Origin: Apostichopus japonicus
Taxonomy: Eukaryota > Echinodermata > Holothuroidea > Aspidochirotida > Stichopodidae
Assembly: GCF_037975245.1 (NCBI RefSeq)
Contig: NC_092569.1
Coordinates: 20,701,001 to 20,765,000, forward strand
Reading direction: 5' to 3'
DNA: 64,000 nt
Shown here: in pieces, positions 1,088 through 47,209 of the stretch
Position numbering within the stretch: the first letter of the stretch is position 1
Layout of the letters: every line of letters starts with the position of its first letter
Notes under the pieces: model-generated
The model's input: only the letters and a program-made list of their open reading frames with translations
What the model was told of the DNA's origin: nothing
Databases searched by the model: none
Position numbers and translations under genes: made by a program

Positions 1088-1338
1088 TCATAAGGGCTTA
1101 ATTTTCATATGCACTGCTACAACAGAACAGTTGTATTCGAGAGTATTTCTTTGAAACAAACATATTCCAGTATCCCAAGGGCCACCGTAGATTCCATTCA
1201 ACATAATAGCATGACAACCATTGAACCACCAGCCGCCGGGATGGAATTCACTAATAGCACAATTTTGAATAACTAAGTCATTGTCCTGATCGTAGGTAGT
1301 AAATTTCATATCCCGATGGTAATCCATGTAGTCATAAT
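1088..1338 (-). CDS. Gene 1 exon 10: C-terminal third of the FReD
   Basis: The exon begins in phase 1 after a TATCAAACAG acceptor and ends with a stop. It carries the family hallmarks DYHRDMKFTTYDQDND (calcium-site type acidic run) and GGWWFNGC, followed by NLNG-like LNGIYG and the terminal MKIKPL. The four cysteines are typical of the FReD C-terminal subdomain. The closest copy is gene 2 exon 9, with five residue differences by my count. Confidence 0.85.
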
Positions 1339-4300
1339 CTGTTTGATATAAAAAGAGAGTTTTTATACTAAGCTTCTTTAAAAATTCATAGGAAGACTTT
1401 TTACAAACTTATCCATTTCTTTTTACAGTTATTGTTACAGGCTAACTGAAAAAAAAACACAGATATGTCATATACTTTTCGGATGCAGTCTAAATGCTTC
1501 CTGTAGCCTAGACAAGCATGAAACCTCAATTTAGCATTGTGTACCTTTCAATTTTAGTTGAAGTATCCCAAGAACTTCGTTAGCATTTGCATATTAGTAA
1601 TTCCCCTTCGCACTCTTTCAAGTGTTTTAAGAGGTCTTGACAAATATGCTATGGCATTAAGAACAAACAACTATACATTTTACATTCAGTCAACAAAACC
1701 ATACCAAATTGAACTTGTCAGAGGCAGGTGATATTCGCGGAAAAATACGTACCAAAGCTCCCTGTGTAACTTCCAAGCGTTATCTCGTATTTTGTTGCCT
1801 CGGAGCTAATTCTAAAAAGATTGTAATGAAGATATTCACTGGCATCATTGGTGGTGTTGAACCAAATTTCAATTCTGAGTTGATGATCTCTCTCAGCTGA
1901 TATGACATGTATTTTCTCATTTCCAAGCCAGAAACTAGAATTGAGATCGCCAAATCCATCTCTGTAGGTTATCCAATCATTGAAAAATGACACAGAAGCA
2001 TCAACTCGCTTCTGAAACAGCTGTATAAAAAATAACCGCTTGTTTTAGAACGATACACAAGTTGAATATGTACAGTTTAACTGAAGGTGACAAGAGTTGC
2101 CTCTGGAAGAGATCTCATCATTGCTGAAATGAGTTTATGCGACGACGAAAGAATTGGGAAGACTTCATGATAATTAAGAAAAAACAAGGTTTGCAGAAGT
2201 TACTCAAGTGACGAACGTTTGGTATCGCTGGTCGAAATTTGACCCAGAGCGTAATATAAAGGGACTTATGCCGTCATTTAGTGAAGAATTTTGTTTGTAA
2301 AATGAGCGGCTAGTAGTAGCTTTGGGAACAATCTAAGATGGTAGTTAAAGATCGAAATATAAGTGAATGTTAGATTAAGTGGAATATAATCAACATCAGC
2401 GTCTTGTTTGCATGATCACAGGGTAATAGCAACTCCGCGGTTTAATTAGTAAGAGGACAGGAACATAACAGCGTGCAGCCACGTACACTGAAAATGTCGT
2501 CCAGCAATAGTGTTACAGACGTATGGGATAATATTAATAATATAAAAGAAAAAGCATCTGCAAAGGAACATTTACGAGTTATGGGAAATGTGAAATGACA
2601 AGTGTCTTGGTTTCGTGAAGAAAACTTACCATCCAACCACCTTTGCAATAAACTTGGAAAGGTCCATGTGCCCAAGAAGGCGGATGTATCAAATAAATGC
2701 CTTCTTCGGTGGACAAACCATTATAAACATCCTGACAGTTTGTGATTACTTGACAAGTCGTACCATTTCCCCAGTAGCCCTCTTTACATTCGCAAGATGA
2801 ACTTTGAACTTGTTTCTGGCATGTTGCATTATGACTGCAGGAGTATTCTTTACAGTGGAGAACATCATTTTCACATGTGCAACGTCTTGTGCAGTTTAAG
2901 TTAACATGCGATGATCCGTTCTGTGCAGAAATGTTAATAATTACAAGCAATGGGAAGATGAAGCTGTGCTGAAACGAGATTTTATTCAACGGCTGATATT
3001 GAATAATACGTCAGCGGAAAATGTAATTTCATATTAATTGTCTTTTTCAATCTAAATGTAATTGTAAAAATCTTTTCTGGTTTACCAAACGTTGGGACTG
3101 TCACACAAAACCATGAGAAAACAGAATTGTAATATAATTGCATGTCCTATATAAGGTAATGTTTCTGACCAACTTAAAGCTATCATGATAGTGAACTCCA
3201 AATGCAAATAAAATCAACCTTTTACACCAATAACGTTTAAAATGAATCTCCTTTTCTTATATCTATATCGCAAAAGGTTAAGGGGAACTTTTTCAACGCA
3301 ATCTGTACAGCTACATGAACAAAACATGTGCTTGCTATTTTATTTGTTGGTAGTGATGATATATAAGCTCTCAAACACATCTTCGTAGTTAAGGAAGTCT
3401 TGACATATCAGGAAAAATCACAACTGTCGAGTTGTGTGAAAATACCGAAATGACTCCTGTGGGCGAGAGGTAACACCCGCATTCTTCCAACGGTATGCAT
3501 GCTCCATCTCTGATTTGGAATCCATCTGGACATACGCACGTATAACCCGGTTCATCATTACAGCTCTTAAAACACCCATGGAGTCCTTCGGGATCATCGC
3601 ACGTAGTTTGGCATGAACAGTTCATCCATATCATGTTGGAAGGACAGGATTCTGAAGTATCATGAAATGTTCAATTCGGCCGTTGCAACAAGTGCTCTTA
3701 ACTATGAATACAACATCGTGACGGTTCTTTCAAATACTCATTTGGCCAAAGGTTTACAAAAATGAGAAATCCCTAGTTGATGTTTCTATATGCTATAGTT
3801 TCACCACTTGACTATGTATTGTCAGAGTGTTTCTAGCAAGTGTATTTTCAATCTAACCAAAGGTACTCTAACATATTGCGTAGAGTACGTATTGTGAGTG
3901 GTAGTTTGATTGGTGTGGCTATTTGAAATATTCTGATTGAAATATGAAACTAAGCTATCAAATATCTAGATACGTTATTGTAAATACCGTCTTATCGTTT
4001 ACACTTCATGTAATAGAGATACGGTAGAAACGTTAAACACTCGGGCAGTAGACTATTCACATATATCATAATATTTCTTACAATTTTGTCTACAATTTTG
4101 AACTGTAGAAATGTAGGCTTAATAGCATAGAGTTTTATATTACCTGTTGTAGGTGTCCGTGTTGTTGATACTTCATTTCTACGTGTAGTTGCTATGGTCG
4201 ATGACGGGTCAACGGTTGACATAAATAATTGCTTTTTATTCATAGATCGTGTTGTTTCATGTAAAATTCTCTCAGATAGCAAGTGACCTGTTGAGGACAT

Positions 4301-7142
4301 CGATGTTGTTGAAAATTCCTTTTTGTTGATAGTTGTCATTTTATCGGTTGACTGAAGCAACATTGTTTCATCTGTGGAGTACATGTTTGTACTTTTTCAT
4401 TGAATATGTTGTTGATCAAATGATAAATATCAAATTTTCTGATATTTCTAATAATCACAAATATAAAAGTTATAAGTGGACCTAAATATATTGTTGGTCC
4501 CGAGATAATTCAAAGCTAGACACATGAATGCGAACGTCAAATACTTAAATAGCAATGTTACAAGATTTTTTTTATTGATCCAAGCAACGTTACACCAACT
4601 ACATATGATGTTTACGTCAACAAGGATATTATTCTGTTTTATCAATATAAATGGTTCAGATTGACTCAATCCTGATAAAAAAAATACACCATATGTTACA
4701 TATACACCATATCTCTTTACCTGCTGTAGGCATCACTGTTGTTGACACCAAAGTCTCGAATCGCGTTGTCAATTCATTAGTTGACGGTGATATTCTCATC
4801 CCATCTGTTGAGTACACTGTAGTTGCTGATTGGTCACTCATATCCGTTCCCAATGTACTAATTGTATCTATAAACGAAACAGCGAAGGTGAGCTTTACAG
4901 TATGCATTGAAGTTCCGTTTTTTTTTTTATAATATATGCAAAACACATTACTTGATTTGTCTCAATGAACTTTACATAATATGATAGAAGAATCGGAACT
5001 AACTAACATTATTGTGCTAATCCATATAATCAGCTGTATTACTTTTTTATCCAGTAAACTAATTGTGACTTCTCTCATCTGTAAACGAAATGTTCAGTGT
5101 AAGCTGTTGTTCAATCGTTTTCAATATATGTTAACTCTTTAACATATGTAAACTAAGATAAATCTACATCAACTTTAACATGTTGGAAAAAAAATGTAAA
5201 CAGACTAAAGAACTAATATTGTCCTTTGCTAGTTGCTAAGACGAACATTTAAAATGCATCAGCATTTGAAAGGTGCATGTGAACATGTGAAGTTTCAAAC
5301 GAAACATTTATTGTATATTAAATTGGTTAAAATTCTTACACCTAAATATTACAATACTAGACAAAATATATGAAGAGAAGGGAATTACAAGTAAGCATCA
5401 CGTTACCTGTTGGGACCACCGATGATTTTTGAACTTCATTTTTGCTGGTGGTTGTCATTTTATTGGTTGACCGAAGCAATGTTGTTTCATCTATTGAGTA
5501 CATGGTTGTGAATAGTAATTCACTCGGTGTTGTTGCTAGTTTGTTTGGCAAATCATATATTGAATTAATGACAAAATATCACATTTTTTAAATATTGTAA
5601 AGAATTACATAAAGTTTTAATTGATCACGTAATATATTTTTAATCTCGAAATAAGTCAAAACTATACACGAATGGGCGTTATCATGCGTTTGTAAAATAT
5701 GTAAATAAGAATATTAACACACGACGTTACTTATTTTGTATAAGTCCAAGTAACGGTAGACCAACTACTTCTTGACAACATAATAAAGATGAGTATCATC
5801 TGTTTTATGTGGGATTCAGATACTGAGAAACGACATCATATGTTATCACGTTACCTGTTTTAGGCATCACTGTTGTCATTTCATCAGCTGACGGTGATAT
5901 TCTCATCCCATCTGTTGAGTACACTGTAGTTGCTGATTGGTCACTCATATCCGTTCCCAATGTACTTATTGTTTCTATAAACGAAACATCAAAGATGTGC
6001 GGTAATAATATGCACTGAGGTTCTTTGTTCTTTATCTCAGGTGTATTTAGATTCAAAATACATTACTTCATCTATCTGAATGTACCCTACATAATCTGAT
6101 AGAAAAATTAGAAAAAAAAACTCAAATGACATTATTGTTTTAAAGCATTTAATCGGTATTGCGTTGGAATCTATTAACCGAATTTTATAACAGAATTTAC
6201 CTCGTTGGTCTTGTTCACCACCTGCGTTCTTCATCATTAAATCTTCAAATTCGCAAAGACCTGAGAAAAGAAAATGAAAGTGAGTTATCAAGTAGCGATG
6301 AAACTGAAAGTTTGCAAAGATCAGATATAGATAAAATTGAAAAGCAGTGTATACCGATAACAAATACAAGCATATAGCCTAATGGTGTTAATGATCATAT
6401 AGTAACAAATTAATGTCAATGGTATCACATCGGGCTTTCGTCCAAAAAATTAAAAAGTAAAAGTAAAGAGAGGTTGTATTATTCTTTCTTGCGTTAAAAT
6501 TGTGATATTGCTATCTTTGTGACTGATGGTGTTGTGGTCGTCTGTGTTCATTTCTCCATTTAACACGTTTTATTGCTAAATTAATGTCCTCTAGAATAAT
6601 ACTGACGATTGGTAATATCGATTTTTTACAGTATTTTAGAATAAGATATCATTTTGGTAGTAGACTGTCATGCGTCGGTTGGAATTTAAAAAAAGTTCGT
6701 GTATTCCGATATTACACTATCAGGGCCTATTAGATTATATTAACCATGTCTTTCTCGCCACTCTCATATGAACATTTACTGAAAGAGAATACAATATGGT
6801 TGAATAATATGTGGGTTCAAAATATCCCACGACCTTATCAAAATTATCTTAATTTGGGAATAAGAATCGCTATGACCTTTGACATGATGAACTTATAGTC
6901 ACTGTGATTACGCAAGTGCCATTTATTATGAGGAAGTTTCGCCGTGTTTAGCAATGGCATAACACATGAATTATTCATTAATTGCACTGCAATTAATACT
7001 ATCTTAACCTTAAGTAATTAGATTGTACTAAAATGATAATTTCGTTTTGTTACTTACCCATCGCTATCACGAAATCGATGTTCTGCCTAATCAGTAATCC
7101 AGCAAGAAAGATGTAGGTCCATTTAACAAGGCAATTAGCCAT
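1088..7142 (-). CDS. Gene 1: secreted mucin-TIL-EGF-fibrinogen-related protein, 10 exons
   Basis: I assembled ten exons on the minus strand: 7142-7058, 6260-6201, 5974-5855, 5535-5407, 4867-4721, 4371-4144, 3651-3446, 2920-2630, 2020-1753 and 1338-1088. All have GT-AG junctions with matching phases and give a 594-residue protein. Order: signal peptide (about 1-28), acidic then Ser/Thr-rich stalk (29-256), TIL domain (257-325), VWC/EGF-like segment (326-385) and fibrinogen C-terminal domain (386-594). FReD proteins of this kind are usually secreted lectin-like recognition proteins. Calcium binding and glycan or acetyl-group recognition are family knowledge, not shown here. Sequons such as NGSS, NATC and NSSF suggest N-glycosylation, and the stalk suggests O-glycosylation. 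There is no membrane segment beyond the signal peptide. The weakest junctions are the acceptors of the 5535 and 4371 exons, and extra exons cannot be excluded. Confidence 0.8.
1753..2020 (-). CDS. Gene 1 exon 9: middle of the FReD
   Basis: The phase 0 acceptor TTTTTATACAG leads into LFQKRVDASVSFFNDW, then GFGDLNSSFWLGNEKIH. The exon ends in phase 1 at a GTACGT donor. The DGFGDL..FWLGN block is diagnostic of fibrinogen-related domains. Confidence 0.88.
2630..2920 (-). CDS. Gene 1 exon 8: VWC/EGF-like segment and start of the FReD
   Basis: The exon is phase 0 at both ends, from a TTTCTGCACAG acceptor to a GTAAGT donor. It encodes a CTRRCTCENDVLHC stretch resembling the segment that often follows TIL domains, then an EGF-like module ending GYWGNGTTC, then NCQDVYNGLSTEEGIY as the first FReD strand. 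The usual CDM..DGGGWTV loop is replaced by the short YCKGGWM across the splice. Confidence 0.85.
3446..3651 (-). CDS. Gene 1 exon 7: TIL cysteine-rich domain
   Basis: A phase 1 acceptor and a phase 0 donor (TCG/GTATTT) bound a 68-residue module with 11 cysteines in TIL spacing: ESCPSN, MNCSCQTTC, LHGCFKSC, YTCVCPDGF, GACIPLEECGC. TIL domains occur in serine-protease inhibitors and in large secreted matrix and mucin proteins. No reactive-site loop function can be claimed here. Confidence 0.85.
4144..4371 (-). CDS. Gene 1 exon 6: fused Ser/Thr-rich stalk exon
   Basis: This 76-codon exon is phase 1 at both ends, rich in Thr and Ser, and begins DETMLLQSTDKMTT. Its first half resembles exon 4 of this gene and its second half resembles gene 2 exon 5. 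The boundary reads SSTG followed by an unused GT, so it looks like two stalk exons joined by loss of the intron between them. The acceptor CTCCACAG was chosen because a stop lies just upstream in frame. Confidence 0.55.
4721..4867 (-). CDS. Gene 1 exon 5: Ser/Thr-rich stalk, type A
   Basis: A 49-codon phase 1-1 exon with the text TLGTDMSDQSATTVYSTDGM, nearly identical to exon 3 but with a longer tail (TTRFETLVSTTVMPTAG). The acceptor is CGTTTATAG and the donor GTAAAG. The repetition of type A and type B exons shows that the stalk grew by exon duplication. Confidence 0.7.
5407..5535 (-). CDS. Gene 1 exon 4: Ser/Thr-rich stalk, type B
   Basis: A 43-codon phase 1-1 exon carrying the type B signature SIDETTLLRSTNKMTT and ending VVPTG at a GTAACG donor. 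The upstream acceptor AAACTAG has a weak pyrimidine tract. A shorter form starting at the internal ATAG/ATGAA site would also keep the frame. Confidence 0.6.
5855..5974 (-). CDS. Gene 1 exon 3: Ser/Thr-rich stalk, type A
   Basis: A 40-codon phase 1-1 exon, TISTLGTDMSDQSATTVY onward, ending VMPKTG at a GTAACG donor. Its surrounding intron sequence also matches that of exon 5, so exon and flanks were duplicated together. Confidence 0.7.
6201..6260 (-). CDS. Gene 1 exon 2: short acidic spacer
   Basis: A 20-codon phase 1-1 exon (LCEFEDLMMKNAGGEQDQRG) between a TTTTCTTTTCTCAG acceptor and a GTAAAT donor. It joins the signal peptide to the stalk. The second exons of genes 2 and 3 occupy the same position and phase but share little sequence. 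Confidence 0.6.
7058..7142 (-). CDS. Gene 1 exon 1: signal peptide
   Basis: The ATG opens MANCLVKW, followed by a hydrophobic core and a small-residue end, with a phase 1 GTAAGT donor. The same MAN start and phase are seen in gene 3, which supports this start codon. Upstream on the minus strand is an ATTGGTT (CCAAT-type) element but no clear TATA box. Confidence 0.7.
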
Positions 7143-8449
7143 CTTCGAGTTGAAATAAATGTTCAGTACTCTTACAAGCTCAAACCAATAGTATTCTAAC
7201 CAGATGAGCTAGATCGTATCTAAAGTCGCAAACAGTTACCAGATAGAACTGTCTATTACAAATTTTATGCCAACCTCATTCGGTAATAAATATGAAATAA
7301 ATATGTAATTAAAGCAATAAATGTTTACTCCGCCGAATTCGATATTACAGCCTGCTGTTTTGCCATTTTAAGCACAAACAGGTTTATTAGTGACACTATA
7401 TTGTAAGGAAAAAAATTGTGCCACAGGAAATTTGTCAATTAGGTAGAGAATAAATATTCATTTAGGTTAAATTTCACATCTTTGTTCAAGAAAAGAGGGT
7501 AGTTTATGTCATTAAAGAAATTCGATACACTTTTGAAAATACAAAGCGCATATGAATTTAACAGGTAACATTACTTGGTAATGTTATTTGAAGCTTTAAC
7601 GATTCATAATTTGGAACAATTGTTGAGTATGTCTAGTAAATATACATGTTACTGCTTCCTCTGAAATCTTCTTCCAATGAAGTTGGGAAAATTGCTTTTT
7701 AATAAACTTTGCCCAAAAAACATTTCTTTCAATGTTAAATATCACATATAGTGCATGGCCATTGACGTCACACTAGCCCCGCCCCAAAAAAAAAAACGGT
7801 GAATATTATATTGGGAACATAATTATTAGATCCAGGGCATGTCGTGGCAGCATTAATTGCTTTATATCATTGAGTTGCAGTTGATCAATATAATTGCCCA
7901 AGAAAAACTGAGCGTACCTCTCAGTGATTCAGCTATCGACCGCTACTGTCGGAAAATCCCACGACAAGGTTGCTCTTCTCGTTAAACTTATTGCATACCA
8001 AAGCAGCCCTTAATTGTGAATGCCAGACGTAAGCTAAAGTCTACGTGATTGTAATTTCTGACAACCTGGCCCATCAAAACTAATCTCTGCTGAACAAAAC
8101 TCAAAAGTTACGGGAAGTATATCGATGTTGACCTTGGGTCGGCAGGATCATTGCCATGATAAAGTCTGCAGATGATCACCAGTCTAAAGTTGTTGTTTCT
8201 GGTACTCGTGACTTAGCTGTGAGGTGTTATTATTAATACTTTTTAACGCCATGACTAAGTCAGAATTATCAAATTCCATTTTTTTAATTGTTATAATCGT
8301 TCTTTTTATATTGGAAAATGTACTTACGTTATTGCTGTGTTAGTTCATGCAATCAGCTACACATTCTTCTGGCAACAAATTGTTTATCATTTTGTCTATA
8401 CCAGTTTTACGGACGTAACTAATAATATTGATGGACTAGCCACACTAGT
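7143..8449. other. Upstream region of gene 1, no gene seen
   Basis: No supportable coding region. A perfect TGACGTCA (CRE-type) palindrome at 7763-7770 sits beside a CCCCGCCCC box, about 620 bp upstream of the gene 1 start. This may be chance. Positions 7850-8330 have broken frames that could be the decayed upstream part of the LINE fragment that follows. Confidence 0.3.
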
Positions 8450-8830
8450 AATGACTTAACTGCAAATGAATTTGTCAATGTCTTTCCTGTAAATGAGAAT
8501 TGTGAGCCTTCTATTCTTCATATAAATGCACGCAGTCTTTACAAAAAATATTGACTCAATTAACAATATGCTGAAGCACTTTGGGAGTTCACCTAATTTG
8601 TTTGCAATATGAGAAAGTTTGATCAATAGCACAACATTATACGAATTGTATATTATTGATGGATATAACTTTGTTCATAACGTTATGATTGATAGAAAGG
8701 AGAGGGGCGTGGCTATTTACGTTAAAAGTAATATTAGTTTTGTAAACAGGGATGAACTCAGTACGCACCTCAATAATGACTCTGATCATATTTTCATTGA
8801 GGTATCATCGTACGTTATAAGGACAGAATA
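8450..8830 (+). mobile_element. LINE endonuclease fragment
   Basis: With a few stops and frame changes the translation reads PSILHINARSLYK, then NNMLKHFGSS, then DGYNFVHNV and GVAIYVKSN, ending DHIFIEVSS. This is the N-terminal half of an apurinic-type endonuclease domain as found in CR1/L2-type LINEs. No reverse transcriptase follows, so this is an isolated decayed piece. Confidence 0.65.
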
Positions 8831-8919
8831 AAAAATAAAAAAAAGTTCATCTCAAAGTGTCGCCCTAGTAACAGGTCTCCAAACCGTGATATAAGATGAA
8901 ATAGGTTCACACGACCGTT

Positions 8920-9048
8920 TGCGTCCAGTTGTGTGATGATCGCCGCACAGGCGTGAAACTCGGGTAACAACATGCTTTTAATTATCGTATAGGTATACTA
9001 TATTACGTACTTGTACATCGAGCACCTTTGCAGCAGGAATTCAACACC

Positions 9049-9056
<8 letters not shown>
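8920..9056 (+). ncRNA. Hammerhead-ribozyme-like repeat, copy 1
   Basis: Positions 8928-8971 can be folded as a hammerhead. Stem I pairs GTTGT (8928-8932) with ACAAC (8967-8971). The core-like GTGATGA is at 8933-8939. Stem II pairs CGCC (8941-8944) with GGCG (8950-8953). GAAA lies at 8955-8958, and a tiny stem III with loop TCGG leads to a GTA cleavage-type triplet at 8964-8966. Against this, the core C is a G, and the stem II base pair next to the core is T-T. A related copy at 22880-23012 keeps CT at the core start. The motif is probably a decayed ribozyme of a Penelope-like or retrozyme element. Confidence 0.4.
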
Positions 9057-9092
<36 letters not shown>

Positions 9093-9113
9093 AATTCAAC
9101 ACCTGAATCTGTG

Positions 9114-9200
<87 letters not shown>
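9053..9200. repeat. (TA)n microsatellite, interrupted
   Basis: Two TA runs (9053-9090 and about 9115-9200) are separated by a second copy of the GGAATTCAACACCTGAAT motif that also ends the upstream repeat. The tract directly abuts the GIY-YIG fragment. Confidence 0.9.
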
Positions 9201-9201
<1 letters not shown>

Positions 9202-9397
9202 CTGCAATGTTCGGAGGCAGGGTATCGTTTTTGTTGTTGATATTACTAAAACGTAAGCGACACCGAGAGACTGTTTCACCTACATAATTGCCCTTTTCAC
9301 AAAGAACGTCGCAATATATTATGTAAATGGCATTGCTAGTATCACAAGAGAAGGAAGAGGGTCTTAGACCATTGTCAACATTGGGAATTTCAAACAC
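9199..9397 (-). mobile_element. Penelope-like element GIY-YIG endonuclease fragment
   Basis: The minus-strand frame has [20 protein letters not shown] followed by [10 protein letters not shown], matching the GIY-YIG nuclease pattern (IYxIxC ... YVGET ... LRxR) that ends Penelope-like retroelements. Only the first part of the domain remains before the TA tract. The hammerhead-like repeat next to it is consistent with a Penelope origin, although it lies on the other strand. Confidence 0.55.
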
Positions 9398-9800
9398 AAT
9401 ACCCGGGGTAACACGGGGGTAAATCTGACACCCAGGTTTTCCGCTACGGAAATTACCGGTGGAGGTGGAAACTCAGGTAAGAAAGTTTGGAGGAAGTGAA
9501 TTGAAATCTGAGGTTGGGGGGCTGACGAAAAGCTAGCATGGGGTTTACCTTAAAGGATTTCCTACAGACTAATCGTCTATGAATGACGCAAACCCTGTTT
9601 GATAGAGCTCATAAAGGATATGATGAGCAGTTTATTATTTCTTTTCGCTTATCTTGAAACGTCCATATCATTGCTTTCAGCCGTGTCTTAATCTTTTTTG
9701 ACAAATCTAAAACATGTTACATTAAAAGGAGGATATTTCAATATATTATGATGTTACAGATCGTAAATCTCTACACACGTGTACAATACCTAAGGTGCTC
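9398..9800. other. No feature recognised
   Basis: Ordinary AT-rich sequence with a slightly GC-richer patch at 9400-9520. I see no coding or repeat signal. Confidence 0.3.
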
Positions 9801-9814
9801 CAAACAAAATTTCT

Positions 9815-9995
9815 TATGGATGTATGCATGCTCCATCTCTGATTAAGAATCCATCTGGATAAACACACAAACAATTTGTTTCATCATCACACCTCTTAAA
9901 ACAAACATTGAGTCCGTCGAGATTATCGCACGTAGTTTGGCATGAACAGTTCATCCTATCATATTGGTTGGACAGGATTCTGAGGTGTAATGAAA
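9815..9995 (-). pseudogene. Broken TIL exon of a FReD-family paralogue
   Basis: The minus-strand sequence starts like the TIL exons of genes 1 and 2 (ESCPTNM in the first frame). A one-base deletion then shifts it to MNCSCQTTCDNLDGLNVC and CVYPDGFLIRDGACI. A TAA follows HP, where the functional copies have LEECGC, and one cysteine pair is altered. Flanking sequence up to about 10085 matches the intron upstream of the gene 2 TIL exon. Confidence 0.75.
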
Positions 9996-10089
9996 TGTAG
10001 TTGACAGTCGAAACAATTGTTCTTAAGCATGGATTCAACAACGTGCAGTTTCTTTCAAATGCTCACCTAGCAACATGTTTAAACAAGAG

Positions 10090-11170: not shown

Positions 11171-11171
11171 T

Positions 11172-13535: not shown

Positions 13536-13599
13536 ACATTGAACGGAGTAATCTAGATGTCAACCATCTGGTACATACTCCATGTAAATACTTTGATAT

Positions 13600-18240: not shown

Positions 18241-19068
18241 AATGTAGGCACCCGCTGTAAAAGATCGGCAAAAGACGTCATCACCGGGGTTCGAACCACC
18301 GATGCAAAAGACAGCCTCGCTCATCAGCTCGTACAGTGCGCCAAGCCATTGCGCCACTGTATGGACTGAGATATTAGGCCGATTAACTAATACTTACAGC
18401 TCCCCATGTAGGCACCCGCTGTAAAAGATCGGCAAAATACGTAATCACCGGGGTTCGAACCACCGATGCAAAAGACAGCCTCGCTCATCAGCTCGTACAG
18501 TGCGCCAAGCCATCGCGCCACTGTATGGACTGAGATATTAGGCCGATTAACTAATACTTACAGCTTCCCATGTAGGCAGCCGCTGGAAAGATCGGCAGAA
18601 GACGTCATCACCGGGGTTCGAACCACCGATGCAAAAGAGAGCCTCGCTCATCAGCTCGTACAGTGCGCCAAGCCATCGCGCCACTGTATGGACTGAGATA
18701 TTAGGCCGATTAACTAATACTTACAGCTCCCCATGTAGGCACCCGCTGTAAAAGATCGGCAAAAGACGTAATCACCGGGGTTCGAACCACCGATGCAAAA
18801 GACAGCCTCGCTCATCAGCTCGTACAGTGCGCCAAGCCATCGCGCCACTGTATGGACTGAGATATTAGGCCGATTAACTAATACTTACAGCTTCCCATGT
18901 AGGCACCCGCTGTAAAAAGATCGGCAAAAGACGTCATCACCGGGGTTCGAACCACCGATGCAAAAGACAGCCTCGCTCATCAGCTCGTACAGTGCGCCAA
19001 GCCATCGCGCCACTGTATGGACTGAGATATTAGGCCGATTAACTAATACTTACAGCTCCCCATGTAGC
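18241..19068 (-). repeat. Five tandem 164-bp tRNA-like units
   Basis: Five head-to-tail units of 163-165 bp start near 18241, 18405, 18569, 18732 and 18896. On the minus strand each has a tRNA-like core: an A-box-like TGGCGCGATGGCTTGG with a perfect GCGC/GCGC D-stem, then a consensus B box GGTTCGAACCCCGG forming a T-arm with one mismatch. Units 1, 3 and 5 share GACGTCATC while 2 and 4 share CGTAATC. The junctions alternate between CTCCCC and CTTCCC, so the array is built of dimers. It is probably derived from a tRNA-related SINE; it is not a functional tRNA cluster. Confidence 0.8.
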
Positions 19069-22436: not shown

Positions 22437-22442
22437 CGTATA

Positions 22443-22500
<58 letters not shown>

Positions 22501-22507
22501 AATATAC

Positions 22508-22553
<46 letters not shown>

Positions 22554-22566
22554 GTATATATATACA

Positions 22567-22601
<35 letters not shown>

Positions 22602-22602
22602 G

Positions 22603-22634
<32 letters not shown>

Positions 22635-22638
22635 TATT

Positions 22639-22694
<56 letters not shown>

Positions 22695-22720
22695 AGAAAT
22701 GAATATGTAGCAACTAGTAT

Positions 22721-22783
<63 letters not shown>

Positions 22784-22820
22784 GTGTGTGTATATGTATA
22801 TTTGTATGTATATATATCAG
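22437..22820. repeat. Long TA/TATG microsatellite
   Basis: About 380 bp of TA with scattered TATG, TATT and TATAC variants, broken once by a unique stretch near 22695-22722. All reading frames through it are artefactual Tyr-Ile repeats. Confidence 0.9.
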
Positions 22821-24262: not shown

Positions 24263-31256
<6,994 letters not shown>

Positions 31257-32431: not shown

Positions 32432-32433
<2 letters not shown>

Positions 32434-34029: not shown

Positions 34030-34260
34030 AGATGCCATGTCGTTTTTCATCACCATCAATATGTCCATCTAATATGGTTAAGATGAACTACACTTGTCAA
34101 GCCACTTGTCAAGATCCAGAAGGACGATATGGTTGCTGTAGCAACTTCACAAATGGTGCACAATGTATTTGCCCATATGGGTTTGTCTATACGGTTATAT
34201 CGACTGCGTACCCTCACAGGGTTGCGGATTTTACGACTACCAGACAGGCGTAGTACCAGT
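34030..34260 (+). pseudogene. Frameshifted TIL exon of a FReD-family paralogue
   Basis: One frame gives SICPSNMVKMNYTCQATCQD, PEGRYGCC and AQCICPYGFVYT. After a one-base loss near 34195 the next frame gives IDCVPSQGCGFYDYQTGVVP, ending at a GTGAGT donor in the same phase 0 as the working TIL exons. The acceptor is not recognisable in the expected phase. Confidence 0.7.
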
Positions 34261-35995: not shown

Positions 35996-35996
35996 G

Positions 35997-36263
35997 GATT
36001 CAATGCAATAGACTACCATAGAGGCTATCCGTTCTCAACGATAATTATGCTGCTTCCAGTGCTGTGTGAATTGTTGTCTTGGTGGCTGGTGGTATAAATA
36101 TTGTTTCGACACTAACCTGAATGGAGATTTCAACCCATCTGACCTAACTGGAGTATGCGTTTTTGATAGAGCAAACAATGAACACTTCTGTGACATTAAG
36201 AAAACAGAAATGAGTTTAAACTTGTTGATTTCCTTAACTTCGGTGATCAATAAAAGTATTTAA
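35997..36263 (+). pseudogene. Broken C-terminal FReD exon
   Basis: After a CTCATTCAG acceptor the frame opens FNAIDYHRGYPFST, then shifts to DNYAASSAV and again to NCCLGGWWYKYCFDTNLNGD and LTGVCVFDRANNEHFCDIKK. These are the FReD C-terminal motifs spread over three frames. The usual MKIKPL end is replaced by a longer unrelated tail. It belongs with the TIL remnant upstream. Confidence 0.7.
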
Positions 36264-38752: not shown

Positions 38753-38834
38753 ATGGCGAACTTTGCCAATCGGAAGCGTGCAATAACTGCTGTCTTACTT
38801 TATGCTAATATCGTCCACATATCGCTTGCTATGG
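38753..38834 (+). CDS. Gene 3 exon 1: signal peptide
   Basis: MANFANRKRAITAVLLYANI, then VHISLAM and a phase 1 GTAAGG donor. It has a positively charged N-region, hydrophobic core and small residues at the end. Confidence 0.7.
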
Positions 38835-41800
38835 GTAAGGTTTGATTATTTTTATTTTGTTTTATACATTTGGTGTATAATGTAAAAGGCGTATCAACTA
38901 AGATCTTCCATTAACTTAAAGCTAACTTGTCTGCTTATATAACTTGTATTAATGTACCATGATTTTTAAGTTTATCTTTCTCAAACAACTTTCTTATGAA
39001 AGTTGTAAGACATAAGTACACTTGCAGATAAATACACTCCCTTGAATATTGCGTTACTTGTTATCTGGAATTACATCTCTCCCAATATGTTGCTGCCAGC
39101 GATCACGGCTACTGGCCTAACCACAGTGATGATGACAACTAATATATCTGATATAAAATTATTCTAGACCAACCTTTGGATGTACTGATGTGATTGAAAT
39201 ATAACGAGCTTCTCTGACAACCGATTCACACACAGATTACATTAAGTACTGTAAAATTTAAAGTTTTTTACCACAGTAAATACTGGATCGTGCTGATAAA
39301 TCGGTTAAATCGGTAGCATGTGATATTAGGATTACAGTAAGAACTGAGGATACATGTAATCCAAAATAAATGCATCAAACTGGATTTGTTGGGATTACAC
39401 ATATTCTTAGTACTTACTGTAATCTTAATAACACATGCTACCGATTTATAGCACGATCCGCTTTTTACTGTGGTACAAAACTTGAAGATTTATAGTAGAT
39501 ACTGTGTTCTCTGTGTGTATGGGTGTCTCTGGGGTATCAGGCAGTTTTGGTGACGAGAGGTGATGAATATTAGTGTAAACGTTCCTGTTTTTTTCATTTT
39601 TTTCAACTTTCTTATTTCGTGCCATTGTTCTCAAAACAGGCATATGCGAGTTCGAGAATTACATGAAAGGTCTCTCCCATCGGAATCCTGAATTAAGTGG
39701 TAACTTTATTTATTGTTTTACACATTCTTAGCTGTTATTTATTCAAATTTGTTTAGCTGGGTTTTTGATATGAGACTTATCTGTTATCCGTTATTGCTCT
39801 TGATAAATACGTTATGAAGCAAAAACAACACAATTGTCAAATATAACTTGTGTATGAGAAATCATAGTGATAGACAACTCAGACAACAATCTAACGAAAG
39901 TCCTCTTCCATGTGAGAGATACTGTTGTTCAAAAGTTACATTAGGGCATTGTCATTTTTGCATTTGTGATGTCATTGCTCTTCTAATTTACCTTTTTTTT
40001 CAAGGTTTCAATGTAAAGTGTGTAATCTTGACAATGAAACCAATAACATCGTGAACTCTTATTAATAACTTCAATGTTTTAACTTCCATAATTTTTTCAT
40101 AATCTATCCATATTACATGGATAAAAATATTAATAAACTACCAGTAGATAAAGGATATAGTATGACAGTTCAAACCGTAGTTAGATGATACATATCTATA
40201 GGCTTGTCCCAGTCGTGTTTGTAAAAGTAACATTTAAACTCTGATAGCTCCCAAGCGAGATGCGAGCTAGTTGGAAAAGCTGTTTCACATTAATATTTCT
40301 GTCAGTATTAATGATGATTGTTGTTGTTTTTTCTCTTTGTGGTATGAAAAATATGTAAACAAGAATAATACAGTTATATAAATGTTTTGGTCTAAGTGAT
40401 AACACAAACTCTTAACTGTTTAACTGTTTGAATATTAACAGCAGCTATCTGTACCCGTTCCACATCAGAGAACCCGTTTTCCCCAAAAAATATATGTCAA
40501 TTTGACTTTTCACTTCCCTTCAAAGTGATGTATTTCTAAGTCCTTGTTAATCTATTTGAGTAATTTGTATACATGTTTTGTATACTAAATGAAAACGGAA
40601 GTCCGTGCAATTCTATTTGAGTAATTTGTATATAAGTATTTGATGTAAATGAAAGTGGAAGTCTTTGTTTATCTTCTATCACTATTTCGTGTCTAAACGC
40701 CATTGCATATTACAACATGTATTACAAAGATGATTTTTGAGTCAAGTTTCTATAACGCGTACCTTACATAAATGGTAATATATGTTTTTGTTTGAAAATT
40801 AACATTATAGTTTATTCTTCAATCAAATATGTTTGTTTTTAGAAGAAGGTGAAAACAATGTGTTTGATGAGACTTCTCCAGAGGTTTATTCTATGATGTC
40901 AAACACAGGTAGGTTCCTTTTAAATTAAATTAAGTAAGAATGTTTTAAACTCAACTAAAGTCTATTATAAAGAGTTGTGCGTTTATACTTTACAATAGGA
41001 AAGTTTGTAATATCTTTTTGTGTGAGTAAAAACTTAAGTATTTATATCTTCCGAATGTTCTGGACAGGTATCTGCCACGTAACGAAAACGCTCAACTATC
41101 TGCTAAATTTATTGTCCTTCTAATATATTGTACTGCAATTTGCAGGTATAGTAATTTCTGTTAAAAAATGGTGTTAAGCTATAATTATTCTTAGAGAAAT
41201 GATGGATAAAATCAATTCAGTCACATATTAATTACATAAAGAAAGAAAGTTTGTTTAAATTGATAGTATCATCTGACGCTTTGGTCACTTGCATTGGAAC
41301 ATTGACGTAATTTATGAACATATGTTAGTTGTGATAAACGTGAAAGGCAGTTGCAGTAGTGCTGAGACAGTTTCTCAGTATATTATAACTCGCTCATTCT
41401 TCTTTCAAAAAAAAAAGGAAATTTGTAGTTTCATCATAAAGCAATAACAAATTAACATTTTGATTGATTTCGACAATGTTTATGATGACGACCGTGTTTA
41501 AACTTTTCTACATCATACAAGTATTGATTGATTTGATTATTGCAGGAGTGTAGGAAATACAATAGATTTGGCTACATTTACGTGTCAGCGTTTCAGGGCG
41601 GTGCTGACATGTGACAAGTCAGTTATGAAACGTTTATAACACTCTGCATTATTCTTAACGTCGATCAGAATACTATTATTCTGAATTTAAAACAAGATGG
41701 CAGAAGCCAAATATTGACATTTTCTTAGTTCACAACATATTGGCAATGCGGTAATGGTATGCGATGTAAAGCAGAAAACTCTCATTTAACTATATAACAA

Positions 41801-44800
41801 AACAAAATCAAACATTTAATTTAATATGAACAAAAAGTCAAACATAAAATTTGACCGATTTGTAACATGTATTTGACAAACCGAAATGCAGCTTTGCAAA
41901 CAAAATATTCGAGTATTTGTAGTCTACAAAAGATAATACAACGTGTCAATAGTGTGCAGAGAGACACCTTTCAATGCGTTGTTTCGTTTGGGTATCCGTA
42001 TATAAGTCACTCTAATTTACTGGATTTTTAGCAAAATCACTTAGTTCAGATACACAACAATTTTTCAGTAGTATTTTGGTTAGCTTAATACAAGAATCAC
42101 AACGAATATATATAATTTTGGACACCTAGATTTAGTCCTACAACATTTATGGACAAATATAAGCTATCCAAGCCCATACGAATGGACCTATATTTGAAAT
42201 CGGATATAATACTAAAAGTTACTCACTATTGTTGCGGGACTCATGCACTCACGCACTCATTGTTGCGGGACGAGCTATTCTACATAATGTTAATATAAAA
42301 AATCGTGGTAGATCGAGGTCGGAGCAAATAAACTTTTTCTTTCGTTACTGAAAATAACTATAGATAAGTTTACACTCGATTACAGATTCGACATCACCCA
42401 AGTCGACTTTACAGTCCTCAACGAAATCAATAACCACAACAGGTTGGTATTATAATATAATACGCTGTGCAAATCACATATATCAAAAGCGGTGCTGTGT
42501 TATCAGAGCTATGTATTTCGGGATTTTTTTTTGGTTCTGTTCCTGCCTATCGTTGCAGAATAGTTTCTTTTAACTCTTCAGTTGGAGCATTGTTTATTAT
42601 TTTACAGCAATCTTAGTAATACATTGATCCAAGCTATTCACAGTAGGATACAGCCGGTAATTTATATAGCGTAAATAAATTAGCATTTCACTGTTTGCAA
42701 AGCATATATTTGTGTTAATTTTGTACTATGCTGATAGTACTTGATAGTGCATCCGTTAGAAATGTTATATTCATCAGCTACATTGGTAGAGTTTTCATTC
42801 AAAGAATGAAAGGAAAAAGTTCAAATTCATTCTGAAAATATCCAATTTAATGTAAACATGTAGCTAGACGACAGACAATAAATTTAGAACCAGCCTTTTA
42901 ATATGTTCATGGTAAATAAAATCACCGTGTATTTTAACAGGATGCTCTTTTTATATTCTTGACTGTTAGGGCGAATGCCGACAGCCAATTTTCTGCAATC
43001 CACGAGTTCACCGGTAACCACAGCAATAACTACAGAAGGTATTGCCAAAGCTACACACATCTTACATTTCCTACATGGATACAAAATATTCGACATACAA
43101 ATTTATTTGATTTCAGACTATTGTCTAATTCTGTATTCATTGTTCTTCGTTACCCTCAGTTATGTATAACTCAAGTTAAGCAACTTTGCATAACATAAGT
43201 TTACAGAGCTATACAAAAAAAATGTCTTGTAAAATATAGCACATACAAAAGAAAGGTAAACATGTAGCTAGACAACAGACAATAAATTTAATATCAGTCT
43301 TTATTCACGAGTTACTGGTTATATTAAGTTTTTTCCTTTTTGTTCAACTATTCGAAGACCATTTTCTTAGTACTATGATTGTTGTTAGATTCAATTATGT
43401 ATTTGTATATAGGCCTTTAGCTTTGGTATCATGTTTCTGAAAAAAAAAGATCATTTACTATACCAAACTGTTTTAGTAGTTTTATAATATAGGCATTGTC
43501 TCTTCTCGCTCATTGTATTTGACTGTTATTTTACCAAACTCTTGTAATATATAATTTCTTTAACCGACTGTGGAAAATTTTAGTCAGAGGGGTTTAATCG
43601 GAAGAAATGTATACGTCCGTTTCCGCATCATGACTCTCAAGTTACATCCTAACAATAAAAAATCATACATTACCATTTACTCTTAAAGCCTTTTAATATT
43701 TTCATGGTAAATAAAATCACCGTGTATTTTAACATGATGCTCTTTTTATATTCTTGACTGTTAGGACGAATGTCGACAGCCAATTTTCTGCAATCCACGA
43801 GTTCACCGGTAACCACAGCAATAACTACAGAAGGTACGGTCAAAGCTGCACACATCTTACATTTCCTACATGGATAAAAATTAATCGACAAATTTATTTG
43901 ATTTCAGACTATTGTCTAATTCTGTATTCATTGTTCTGCTTCGTTACCCTCAGTTATGTATAACTTAAGTTAAGCAACTTTGCATAACATAAGTTTACAG
44001 AGCTATAAAAAAAAATGTCTTGTAAAATATAGCACCTACAAAAGAAAAGTAAGTTTAATTGATAGGCATAAATGGACTGAATTTTTGTGAAAATTTCCTT
44101 AAATTCAGAACTGCAGAACTTAACTCTATTGTCGTTAGACTAAGTATATGGTACCATTTTTCTCGAGTTGGGTATGATGTGCGGTTGACGGGAGGGCCAG
44201 GTTCTGTGTTTTACTGTAAGCTCATTTCTTATCCTTCTGTATAAACTCAGTAGGTCAGACTTAAATCCATTTTTCACTGTTACTACTAGTATACGTGTAC
44301 AACATCGCACTACCACAATATGTGAATGATCGAAGCAGCTGACACCGAAGGGAAACTTGCCTTTATAAACCCTGATGAAATATGACATATGACATATTCC
44401 ATATTCCATTTTCAGGTGCGACCACTACGCCACAATGTCCTTTGAATCAAGTCTTTGCTGACTGTGTATGCCAGGGTACATGTGAAGACCCTAATGGGTG
44501 GTTTGGCTGCCATATAAACTGTACTGGAGGAAGAACATGCGTTTGTCCAGCCGGCTTCTTATTACTCGGACAGAATTGCATACCGGAGAGTGCTTGTGGG
44601 TGTTATCACGAAACGGGAGGAGTCATACCGGTATTCTTAAACTGTTATTAGTATATTCATCATGTGCGTTCCTTTACAATCTTATCCACCAAAACAGTCG
44701 TCTTTGTCCCAATAAAGTAGCAGTAGTAGGGTTTTACAAAACACAGATAAAAAGTAAGTTGCTCTACTTGCCAATGTCACATATTTGAATTTCATTGACG

Positions 44801-47209
44801 GAGACAGTGGACATAGTAGGTGATATTAGACAAATTATGTCACCTTTGCTATTTATTTGAAATTGTCATGCTACTAGTAGCTTTTACTGTTCTGGTAAAT
44901 GTACTGAACAGATTTGAGATTCGATAGTGATCAAGCTACGAATCTTGTGAATTCACGAAGTAATTAATCTACAATGGACGACACAAAATACCTGTTGATC
45001 TTATGATAATTCATTCTCTCCTTCTGTTCTTAAATCATGAAGTTAAATTAAAAACATAAAAAGTAGGTTTAATCAAGCGATATATTAATAGCTGTTCATG
45101 TTTAATACAAAAAAAATCATAGTGAGACCCGTCTTATTCAATAATCAATCCAAATTTGTCGAAAGTGTGTGCGAGGGAGACTATGCGATGATGGGATCAT
45201 ATTTGCTAACTATTTTGTGGAACACACCTCCAAAAAAAGAACTATTAACAAGCATATTGCTCCCCAGAGCCAATCAAAAGTGAAGCCAAGAACTGTCCAA
45301 GTAATACTCCGTCCACGCCCGGCCTGACTTAATCGAACACCTGTGCCCTCAAATATGTCTGGACGGACTAAATAAAGCTCATATGAAAAACAGTTCCTTA
45401 AAGTTGTAATGTTTTACCTTGAAAACAGACTAGAACACTATTCCAGAGATGTAATCTACGTAATATCATCATAGTGGCAACACTATATTCATATTTATTC
45501 ACCTTTTCTCTGTATTAAGAATGGCGGATCGCGGATCGTGACCATGGACTGCACGGAAACATGCTCATGTGAGAATAACGTTCTTGTCTGCATAAACTAT
45601 ACATGCAGTGAACATGCGATGTGCCAAAACCATAATGGCACTATTTCGTGCGATTGCAACGTGAACTATATGGGGAATGGGACAGTATGTGAACGTGTAC
45701 AGGATTGCCAAGATCTTTACGACAATGGCGTAATCAGTGAAGGTTTTCACTTGATATACCCGCTTACATGGTCAGGGGAACCTTTCGAAGCTTATTGCAA
45801 AGACGGATGGACTGTAAGAAGACTTTCTTTTGAGTTTATGTCCATGATAGTTGTCGTTTTATATAGAGAAATAACATGTACCATACTACACATTGTACTT
45901 CTATACTCCGCCCCTGAAATTTAATACGTGTGACTACGTAACCTACGTACTTCAACTTTAAAGAACAGAGTGTTGAAGAACAAGTATTATTTTGTGCTTT
46001 TGTGTTAAACATAATGTAAACAAAGTGAAACTATATATTTCCAAGGAGCAGAAAAAACTTTGATAATATGGCTGGGCTGCAAATATCCACTTAGAAATGT
46101 GAGGGGAGAGTGTCTTTTCCTGTTGATATATAGATCATTCATATATTCCATACAAACATCACAGAAGTACTTTTCTTGATTAATCTGGCTTCAAGTGGAC
46201 CGTGAATACTTCCTTAATGAGCCTCAACTAACAAGCATACTGATATCAACCTATTTTTTGGCTGTTGTTGTTTAGTTTTTTCAGCTCCGCGTCAGTCACC
46301 ACGGTCTTTTTTATGGCTGGGATTTATACAGAAATGGCATCCGTAGAAGCGATTCTAATTCACATTGGCTAGGAAACGAAAAATTAGCCAACATAACTGC
46401 CCAACGGGACTACACCATGAGAATGGAATTTAAGAACAGCAGTAGTAACATTACCCACCATCTTCAGTATGATCTCTTTCGAATTGGTTCAGAAGTCAAC
46501 AACTATGCACTAGAAGAGCTCGGCACTTATACAGGCAGCTTGGGTGAGTAAAACATTTTTATCGTAGCCTATAATGCAATGCACGGTATATGCCATGAAC
46601 GAAATTTGTAAACCTTCATGATAGAGTGTGGAACCTGGTTTGTTGTGGTCAACGATCGACTGGCACTTTCGATATTTAAGGAGCATTAGCATCGTATAAG
46701 CAAAAAACGTCAATTTTATCCAAATTTCTCAACATCGTCATCATTGTCGCCATCGTTATCTTCGTCATCTTTGTTTTCGTCTTCGTCTTCTATTGTCATT
46801 TTCATCGTCATTGTCATCCCCATTGGCACAATAGACGATGATGAGAGTTCTTTTAGTTTCGATTTTTCTCTGGAAAAAAAAATTTTTTAGAAGAAATATG
46901 TATGTTTATTTTTTGCTGGTTACCTTTTCCTTCTCATTGTACACAGAATATGACTACATGAGATATCATCGTGGTGTTGGTTTTTCAACATATGACAGTG
47001 ACAATGATAACAGTACATCACGAAAATGCACGGTACCACATATTGCTGGCTGGTGGTACAATGGGTATGATAATTTTACATGTACTACGGCGAATTTCAA
47101 TGGAAGGTATGGCGAACCGTGGAAAGCTGGACTGTGCATTTACGACAGGGAACGAATGATTGCTGACTGCGATATTGCTACAACTGAAATGAAAATCAAA
47201 CCTCTCTGA
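38753..47209 (+). CDS. Gene 3: secreted mucin-TIL-EGF-fibrinogen-related protein, 9 exons
   Basis: Plus-strand exons 38753-38834, 40843-40908, 42386-42442, 42970-43038, 43765-43833, 44416-44630, 45520-45813, 46285-46543 and 46947-47209 join in phase to 457 residues. Order: signal peptide (1-27), short acidic segment, small Ser/Thr-rich stalk (to 114), TIL (115-186), VWC/EGF-like (187-246) and FReD (247-457). The stalk is much shorter than in genes 1 and 2. The FReD is more diverged: the WW motif reads AGWWYNGYDNFTC, so the Cys directly after the Trp pair is moved. It is an older paralogue oriented opposite to genes 1 and 2. An AATAAA at 47362-47367, about 150 nt after the stop, is a plausible poly(A) signal. 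Confidence 0.8.
38835..40842. other. Intron 1 of gene 3
   Basis: Holds MITE copy 2 (39243-39504) and, at 40539-40664, two tandem 62-65-bp units sharing CTATTTGAGTAATTTGTATA. No extra exon was recognised. Confidence 0.4.
39243..39504. mobile_element. Palindromic MITE, copy 2
   Basis: A near full-length inverted repeat: CCACAGTAAATACTGGATCG and TCGGTAGCATGTGATATTAG on the left are mirrored by ACATGCTACCGATTTATAGC and CACGATCCGCTTTTTACTGT on the right. The copy is more symmetrical than copy 1, so it is probably younger. Confidence 0.75.
40843..40908 (+). CDS. Gene 3 exon 2: acidic segment
   Basis: A 22-codon phase 1-1 exon (EEGENNVFDETSPEVYSMMS) between TTTGTTTTTAG and GTAGGT. It lacks the cysteines of gene 2 exon 2. 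Confidence 0.55.
42386..42442 (+). CDS. Gene 3 exon 3: Ser/Thr-rich stalk
   Basis: A 19-codon phase 1-1 exon, STSPKSTLQSSTKSITTTG, with a GTTGGT donor. Its composition is what defines it as stalk. Confidence 0.6.
42970..43038 (+). CDS. Gene 3 exon 4: Ser/Thr-rich stalk
   Basis: A 23-codon phase 1-1 exon, RMPTANFLQSTSSPVTTAIT, with a GTATTG donor. Confidence 0.65.
43765..43833 (+). CDS. Gene 3 exon 5: Ser/Thr-rich stalk, duplicate of exon 4
   Basis: RMSTANFLQSTSSPVTTAIT with the same phases and a GTACGG donor. The near identity indicates a recent duplication. Confidence 0.65.
44416..44630 (+). CDS. Gene 3 exon 6: TIL domain
   Basis: A 71-codon module: CPLNQVFADCVCQGTC, WFGCHINC, RTCVCPAGFLLLGQNC and SACGCY. 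TIL cysteine spacing is kept. The exon runs from an ATTTTCAG acceptor (phase 1) to a GTATTC donor (phase 0). Confidence 0.85.
45520..45813 (+). CDS. Gene 3 exon 7: VWC/EGF-like segment and start of the FReD
   Basis: DCTETCSCENNVLVC and MCQNHNGTISCDCNVNYMGN lead to DCQDLYDNGVISEGFHLIY. The donor ACT/GTAAGA falls at the same place as in genes 1 and 2, after YCKDGWT. Confidence 0.85.
46285..46543 (+). CDS. Gene 3 exon 8: middle of the FReD
   Basis: LRVSHHGLFYGWDLYRNGIR, then SHWLGNEKLANITAQRDYTM and the GTYTGSLG end with a phase 1 GTGAGT donor. The conserved GFGDL is replaced by RRSDS, which marks this copy as divergent. Confidence 0.82.
46735..46825. repeat. Imperfect TCATCG-type repeat in intron 8 of gene 3
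   Basis: A run of CATCGTC, CATTGTC and TTCGTC triplet variants between the two final exons. Confidence 0.6.
46947..47209 (+). CDS. Gene 3 exon 9: C-terminal third of the FReD
   Basis: Opens EYDYMRYHRGVGFSTYDSDN after a TGTACACAG acceptor and ends TEMKIKPL with TGA. The DSDND calcium-site type motif is retained. Confidence 0.85.

Follow-up and report, generated by a model that had tools for sequence, protein, structure and literature searches.

A stretch of 64,000 nucleotides from the genome of the sea cucumber Apostichopus japonicus (the window; positions 20,701,001 to 20,765,000 of contig NC_092569.1, here C9) holds three genes, A, B and C, which join a fibrinogen-related domain (FReD) to a Ser/Thr-rich stalk and to TIL, TILa and EGF domains. 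Judged by their sequences, the genes belong to a very large sea cucumber family, most of the copies found lying on one contig. The family consists of fibrinogen-related proteins (FREPs), a known kind, with a variant architecture. The best reading, which we hold to be moderately probable, is that it constitutes a germline repertoire of secreted recognition lectins: the proteins are probably secreted, and target binding is probably the task of those parts of the FReD head in which the copies differ most.

Architecture of the three genes

Gene models were assembled from the DNA of the window with splice sites placed by eye. Gene A lies on the minus strand (7142-1088) and encodes 594 amino acids; gene B, also on the minus strand (31256-24263), encodes 623, and gene C, on the plus strand (38753-47209), encodes 477 (Table 1). 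The order of domains is common to all three – putative signal peptide, Ser/Thr-rich stalk, TIL, TILa, EGF and FReD – and the series of intron phases is identical: 0-1 for exon 1, 1-1 for exon 2 and the stalk exons, 1-0 for the TIL exon, 0-0 for the exon that carries TILa, EGF and the start of the FReD (FReD-1), 0-1 for FReD-2 and 1-stop for FReD-3. The initial annotation of this stretch had described three genes with the same domain series and phases, and the spliced models, together with a Pfam domain search, bear this out. It had also called one exon VWC/EGF-like; the EGF part holds, but in place of VWC the exon contains TILa ahead of EGF and the FReD start. Of the signal peptide and 5' exons that it took to be shared, a hydrophobic N-terminal exon (by eye, a putative signal peptide) is indeed present in every gene, but exons 1 and 2 of gene B are unmatched to gene A.

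Fibrinogen_C was matched far above its cut-off of 22 bits in genes A (E 6.7e-46, 157 bits), B (E 3.5e-46, 158 bits) and C (E 2.2e-27, 97 bits). TIL, TILa and EGF_3 were also matched in all three genes, each falling under its curated cut-off in one of them (TIL in B, 22.9 against 24.5 bits; TILa in A, 25.7 against 27; EGF_3 in C, 26.9 against 28.5), and the matches to TILa and EGF_3 overlap at the end of the former. Since TILa, EGF and the FReD start are encoded by one open exon in gene A (2630-2920), and likewise in B and C, the fusion is not an artefact of the gene models, and this part of the neck belongs to the same gene as the head.

Ser and Thr together make up 39%, 35% and 42% of the stalks of A, B and C, respectively. 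In a comparison with 569 stop-free windows from elsewhere in the stretch (mean 0.143, maximum 0.825), 16 of 17 40-residue stalk windows in A, 11 of 19 in B and 6 of 6 in C exceed the 99th percentile (0.325). The stalk had been described as Ser/Thr-rich and mucin-like: the richness (35-42%) is confirmed, but "mucin-like" is a loose term because the stalk is poor in proline (3-7%). Its composition suggests that the stalk is O-glycosylated.

Copy number and genomic location

The genome comprises 671,581,487 bases in 35 contigs. The fused TILa/EGF/FReD-1 exon was found at no fewer than 294 places, broken copies included, of which 272 are on C9, a contig that makes up 5.6% of the genome; at least 33 lie between 20.6 and 21.2 Mb. 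This count is the union of three genome searches, with the exon of gene A, of locus L044 and of locus L040 as queries, each covering the best 150 of its first-look candidates (1427, 1234 and 1532, respectively), and 144/150, 144/150 and 149/150 of the matches are without an internal stop. A genome search for Fibrinogen_C gave 169 matches from 2736 candidates. To speak of a cluster of three genes, as had been done, is thus correct but an understatement, given that A, B and C are three among 294 or more places that carry the diagnostic exon, 272 of them on one contig.

Elsewhere on C9, family exons form two blocks (35.02-35.09 Mb and 35.58-35.66 Mb) that resemble each other and lie about 0.58 Mb apart, in an orientation opposite to that of the 20.6-21.2 Mb block; a segmental duplication or an assembly effect is possible.

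Architecture at other loci

A TIL exon is present at 26 of the 30 close loci (L009-L038), and TIL, TILa/EGF/FReD-1 and FReD-2 follow one another in order at 8 of 14 distant loci (L039, L043, L044, L065, L067, L068, L069 and L070). Because TIL is common yet was not seen at every locus, we take the fused exon to be the mark of the family. FReD exons also occur on their own: six of the first eight Fibrinogen_C loci (L002, L003, L005, L006, L007 and L008) have no TILa/EGF within a flank of 1.5 kb.

At half of the ten distant loci that bear TIL (L039, L044, L067, L068 and L070) an additional FReD-2 exon stands some 210-890 bases before TIL; none was found at L041, L042, L043, L065 and L069, the upstream DNA read being about 490-1240 bases. 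When three of these five loci were extended further (J44, J68 and J70) the upstream FReD-2 proved to be accompanied by a FReD-1 exon, and no third FReD exon was found between it and TIL in any of the three. The phases at J44 and J70 permit the upstream FReD to splice directly into TIL. The hand-spliced J70 protein contains two Fibrinogen_C stretches, with EGF_3 slightly under its Pfam cut-off and TIL not reaching E 0.1. No such shortened FReD precedes TIL in genes A, B and C.

Duplication and exchange of gene parts

From just upstream of TIL through the 3' end, genes A (3761-1023) and B (27039-24197) are 94.4% identical, introns included, B being about 100 bases longer. Identity falls to 65-75% in the stalk, and the first two exons of B have no blastn match to the 5' exons of A at E<1e-8. 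Such a gradation would be accounted for if a 3' cassette had recently been joined to different 5' parts by duplication or conversion. The stalks themselves contain exons that were duplicated along with their introns, the units being 95.7% alike in B, 94% in C and 67% in A.

Relatives of the neck and of the head

In all three genes the TIL match is followed immediately by that of TILa, the TIL-TILa (TIL-E) arrangement found in von Willebrand-type proteins. The TIL-TILa-EGF stretch finds its closest solved relative in FCGBP (IgGFc-binding protein; 8rde, 8r0t), with E 8.8e-12 for 8rde when summed over the FCGBP repeats and 3.2e-5 for the best single stretch, the match covering query residues 3-118. 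Altogether 31 solved sequences match the neck at E<=1, and besides 8rde these are FCGBP, Notch, NELL, LDL receptor and uromodulin chains; no solved TIL protease inhibitor is among them. On the strength of this nearest relative, of the TIL-TILa arrangement and of the fact that TIL has the lowest pN/pS of four exons (below), we infer that TIL-TILa-EGF is a structural neck of the von Willebrand/FCGBP kind and not an inhibitor. The likeness is confined to the neck: FCGBP is a long repeat protein (a chain of 2587 residues) built of VWD-type assemblies, of which a FReD head is not a part, whereas A, B and C are without a VWD or C8 match.

Among solved proteins the head is closest by sequence to ficolin-2 (E 3.7e-37), with which it shares the DQDND motif in an alignment. 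The genes differ from ficolin-2 and FIBCD1 in having no Pfam match to collagen at E<=1 in A, B or C, and thus none of the collagen-like region of a ficolin, in stretches of the third FReD exon and, by eye, in an additional cysteine pair near the end of heads of the gene A type (A-type). Molluscan FREPs likewise form large families of secreted FReD proteins for which a role in recognition has been proposed, but in them one or two Ig-like domains precede the FReD; A, B and C have no match to the Ig family at the same threshold and carry TIL-TILa-EGF instead, and in the sea cucumber family this is preceded by a stalk or by a shortened FReD.

Constraint and variation in the head

The ratio of non-synonymous to synonymous differences (pN/pS) was obtained for a set of 28 named A-type copies, of which only full-length, stop-free exons of common length in the fetched DNA were used; for FReD-3, 20 fetched stretches gave 14 full exons, one exon split by a stop and five without a match. 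The ratio is 0.22 for TIL (21 copies), 0.55 for TILa/EGF (26), 0.30 for FReD-2 (26) and 0.39 for FReD-3 (17). An earlier and cruder estimate (dN/dS) that mixed close and distant copies gave these exons values of 0.16, 0.39, 0.65 and 0.30. Purifying selection therefore acts on the cassette, although stretches of the head are variable. Permutation shows that amino-acid changes are clustered in FReD-3 (p 0.004) and FReD-2 (p 0.003); they are unclustered in TIL (p 0.27) and TILa/EGF (p 0.51), as are synonymous changes among the A-type copies.

Within FReD-3 the changes fall into patches at residues 22-32, 40-46 and 62-76, where pN/pS is 0.92 against 0.09 elsewhere; the patches were picked after looking, so that the Fisher value of 9e-6 is no test and the permutation value of 0.004 is the test. 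Beside them the putative Ca2+ motif, DQDND, in the last third of the FReD, is invariant in 17 of 17 A-type copies. Judged by the structures of ficolins and FIBCD1, the variable stretches presumably flank the ligand pocket, the acetyl-pocket residues of FIBCD1 being Tyr405, His415, Tyr431 and Ala432. At the position of Tyr405, aligned by eye, 12 of 17 A-type copies have Phe and 5 have Tyr.

A second set, drawn from other loci, shows the same division. It consists of 45 full-length FReD-3 exons (42 distinct proteins) from 48 loci scanned, with none from L004, L066 or J68, and reveals a common scaffold interrupted by three stretches that vary in sequence and in length: one follows DND, one precedes the WW motif and one follows NLNGxY. 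The stretch before the WW motif is 29% Tyr, compared to 11% for the scaffold and 7% for FReD-2 exons, a composition that is not that of a random sample because the fetched exons were found by similarity to one query. Of 40 exons fetched for this set, 30 have a listed TILa exon no more than 5 kb upstream; for the other 10 the neck is accordingly not established. In L044 a long insert rich in Cys and Tyr separates the WW motif from NLNG in the last FReD exon (3714-4019), which comprises 102 residues, against 71-88 in the other 44 parsed.

A tree-based estimate of the same kind of ratio (omega), for 14 copies with equal loop lengths, 12 of them having a listed TILa exon at most 5 kb upstream, gave 0.58, 1.01, 2.04 and 0.47 for the loops and 0.25 for the scaffold. 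Positive selection on the loops, suggested by a pairwise ratio of 4.45 that involves two codons, was not borne out, the tree count giving 2.04 (P 0.41).

Other features of the window

Between 11212 and 16474 on the plus strand, the list of open reading frames contains, by eye, reading frames like those of a retroelement of the long interspersed (LINE) type, with CCHC-knuckle, endonuclease-like and reverse-transcriptase-like parts. A 164-base unit is repeated in five tandem copies (96% matches) at 18242-19067 and contains the B-box-like stretch GGTTCGAACC; a search for tRNA made on account of this repeat (ARAGORN, bacterial settings) found none in the window. Long ATA and TA microsatellites lie at 27388-27647, within an intron of gene B, and at 22439-22817, respectively.

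Table 1. Exons, stalk duplications and family remnants, in coordinates of the window.
Feature	Position	Strand	Evidence
Gene A exon 1, putative signal peptide	7058..7142	-	spliced model, phase 0-1; signal peptide by eye
Gene A exon 2, short CEFE exon	6201..6260	-	spliced model; resembles gene C exon 2 by eye
Gene A Ser/Thr stalk, four phase 1-1 exons	4144..5974: 5974-5855, 5535-5407, 4867-4721, 4371-4144	-	model and composition; junctions provisional
Gene A stalk duplication	6154-5399 vs 5031-4280	-	67%
Gene A TIL exon	3446..3651	-	Pfam TIL 26.8 bits
Gene A TILa/EGF/FReD-start exon	2630..2920	-	Pfam TILa 25.7 (under cut-off), EGF_3 30.6
Gene A FReD exon 2	1753..2020	-	Fibrinogen_C 157 bits across spliced domain
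Gene A FReD exon 3: putative Ca2+ motif, variable stretches, stop codon	1088..1338	-	model, Pfam, copy comparison
Gene B exon 1, putative signal peptide, differs from A and C	31175..31256	-	spliced model; unmatched by blastn to the 5' exons of A
Gene B exon 2, cysteine-containing, differs from A exon 2	30938..31033	-	spliced model
Gene B stalk exons	27680..29888: 29888-29637, 28872-28612, 27844-27680	-	spliced model
Gene B stalk duplicated unit	29908-28775 vs 28892-27747	-	95.7%
Gene B TIL exon	26724..26929	-	Pfam TIL 22.9 bits, under cut-off 24.5
Gene B TILa/EGF/FReD-1 exon	25905..26195	-	Pfam TILa 27.5, EGF_3 30.5 bits
Gene B FReD exon 2	24927..25194	-	Pfam
Gene B FReD exon 3	24263..24513	-	Pfam
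Gene C exon 1, putative signal peptide	38753..38834	+	spliced model
Gene C exon 2, CEFE exon	39640..39699	+	spliced model
Gene C stalk exons	40843..43833: 40843-40908, 42386-42442, 42970-43038, 43765-43833	+	spliced model, composition
Gene C stalk duplicated unit	42892-43259 vs 43687-44052	+	94%
Gene C TIL exon	44416..44630	+	Pfam TIL 28.7 bits
Gene C TILa/EGF/FReD-1 exon	45520..45813	+	Pfam TILa 35.7 bits; EGF_3 26.9, under cut-off
Gene C FReD exon 2	46285..46543	+	Pfam
Gene C FReD exon 3	46947..47209	+	Pfam
Partial TIL exon, probable family remnant	9820-9954	-	
Partial TIL exon, probable family remnant	34062-34187	+	
Partial FReD-3 exon, probable family remnant	36057-36218	+	
FReD-2 exon truncated by window edge	63799-63999	-	

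Discussion

If the family is a repertoire of secreted recognition lectins, TIL-TILa-EGF would serve as a stiff disulfide neck and the O-glycosylated stalk would space the heads apart, each head binding Ca2+ and, in a pocket lined by the variable stretches, a surface ligand specific to the paralogue, which may be a microbial or a damaged-self glycan. Deployed in coelomic fluid, mucus or healing tissue, the repertoire of heads could agglutinate, opsonise or clear the targets that it binds. This retains one part of the earlier proposal of a recognition protein family, namely a family of proteins with several domains, one of them of a recognition type, that are very likely secreted; the inhibitor part is not supported.

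Several observations weigh against such a repertoire. No loop is significantly above neutrality in the 14-copy tree (P 0.41 for the fastest loop and 0.60 for loop 2), so that relaxed constraint fits as well as diversifying selection, and the position of FIBCD1 His415, aligned by eye, is not constant among the A-type copies (His in 11 of 17, Tyr in 3, Phe in 2 and Thr in 1). The architecture is not uniform either: TIL was not found at close loci L012, L013, L021 and L038, nor in the 0.4-1.5 kb read upstream at distant loci L004, L040, L066 and L071; at L042 there is only a partial TIL upstream of the fused exon, and at L041, which has TIL, no FReD-2 was found downstream in the DNA read. An AlphaFold model of the 97-residue exon of gene A, with B and C as alignment, reached a confidence score (pLDDT) of 33 and was not used. 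Finally, the published FREPs of A. japonicus are up-regulated in regeneration (PMC5638244).

The last point leads to the main rival of secreted recognition, a regeneration matrix. The genes would then encode tenascin-like matrix proteins of wound or gut regeneration, with heads that bind matrix or cell receptors and with loops that vary through relaxed constraint after duplication, an account in favour of which stand the loop omegas, none significantly greater than 1. It also has a precedent in the literature: contigs encoding a fibrinogen (FBG) domain and TILa in the 2018 transcriptome of Cladolabes schmeltzii were called tenascin-like, as were EGF + FBG proteins of A. japonicus cited in the same paper (PMC5897022), and a 2023 review repeats this account (PMC10381214). 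Against it, A, B and C differ from tenascins, which combine tenascin-type EGF repeats, FN3 repeats and a FReD, in having no FN3 match in Pfam at E<=1 and a single EGF region; tenascin-like proteins were found neither in two sea urchin proteomes nor in an NCBI search of echinoderms (PMC11401434), and the changes in the head are clustered along it, not spread. We regard a tenascin-like role as possible but doubtful.

Structural proteins of mucus or adhesive, in which TIL-TILa and stalk form a gel and the head cross-links glycans, are improbable. Sea star footprint proteins do have vWF D, C8 and TIL domains (PMC9382459), and both the FCGBP-like neck and the Ser/Thr stalk would suit such a function; yet in Pfam neither VWD nor C8 is matched by any of the three genes at E<=1, and hundreds of paralogous exons with varied heads exceed apparent structural need. 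Still less credence attaches to the idea that TIL actively inhibits a protease and that the FReD directs it against microbes or parasites. That TIL is inhibitor-like had been part of the initial proposal, and on inspection all ten TIL cysteines are present in gene A, in addition to the Pfam TIL matches; but TIL is paired with TILa, the best solved relative is FCGBP with no TIL inhibitor at E<=1, and the TIL exon has the lowest pN/pS of the four (0.22), with unclustered changes (p 0.27). That stalk and TIL exons come from genes other than the FReD exons can be set aside almost entirely: the models do rest on DNA, and an upstream TIL was not found at four of the 14 distant loci and four of the 30 close ones, but TILa, EGF and the FReD start share a single exon that recurs at 294 or more places, the TIL exon directly precedes it in the expected order in all three genes and at 8 of 14 distant loci, and C. 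schmeltzii contigs carry FBG and TILa (PMC5897022).

The initial annotation considered these proteins under-described, which is true in one respect: in text searches of open-licence PMC papers (subscription papers and supplements being outside this scope) we recognised no description of TIL-TILa-EGF-FReD as a family. The expansion itself had already been published, as had the FBG/TILa contigs. FREPs were reported in 2017 as the most expanded family of A. japonicus, mainly on LG02 and with a tandem cluster of 21 genes (Zhang et al. 2017, PMC5638244), a picture that agrees with ours in the FReD, the expansion and the clustering mainly on one linkage group. The main-text passages of that paper give no architecture beyond the FReD; the TIL-TILa-EGF neck, the stalk, the shortened N-terminal FReD and the variation of loops come from the present analysis. 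The contigs of C. schmeltzii show FBG with TILa in another holothurian, named only as tenascin-like, and the passages concerned (PMC5897022) do not give domain order, TIL, stalk, copy number or genes. Elsewhere among echinoderms, a FREP expressed sequence tag rises in the intestine of H. glaberrima after lipopolysaccharide (PMC2702171), the coelomic fluid of H. tubulosa contains many FREPs (PMC12119288), a gene with a fibrinogen C domain marks one coelomocyte cluster (PMC11244903), and a sea star skeletal protein has four FReDs (PMC5460417).

A more ambitious proposal, which we put forward tentatively and with considerable doubt, is that one chromosome carries a germline, antibody-like repertoire of hundreds of composite FReD lectins. 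Each would combine a fixed Ca2+-binding scaffold and variable pocket loops, often rich in Tyr, Ser and Asn, with N-terminal modules of phase 1-1 that can replace one another, being either Ser/Thr stalk exons or a FReD that lacks the third exon. Neighbouring genes would homogenise or exchange their 3' cassettes.

FREP expansion in sea cucumbers has been linked to regeneration without, in the text available to us, a molecular account of the gene products. With the architecture, the diagnostic exon, the contig map and the list of variable positions, the choice between defence and regeneration can be put to a direct test. Should the heads prove to bind different targets, a deuterostome that has no antibodies would possess a large recognition repertoire encoded in its germline.

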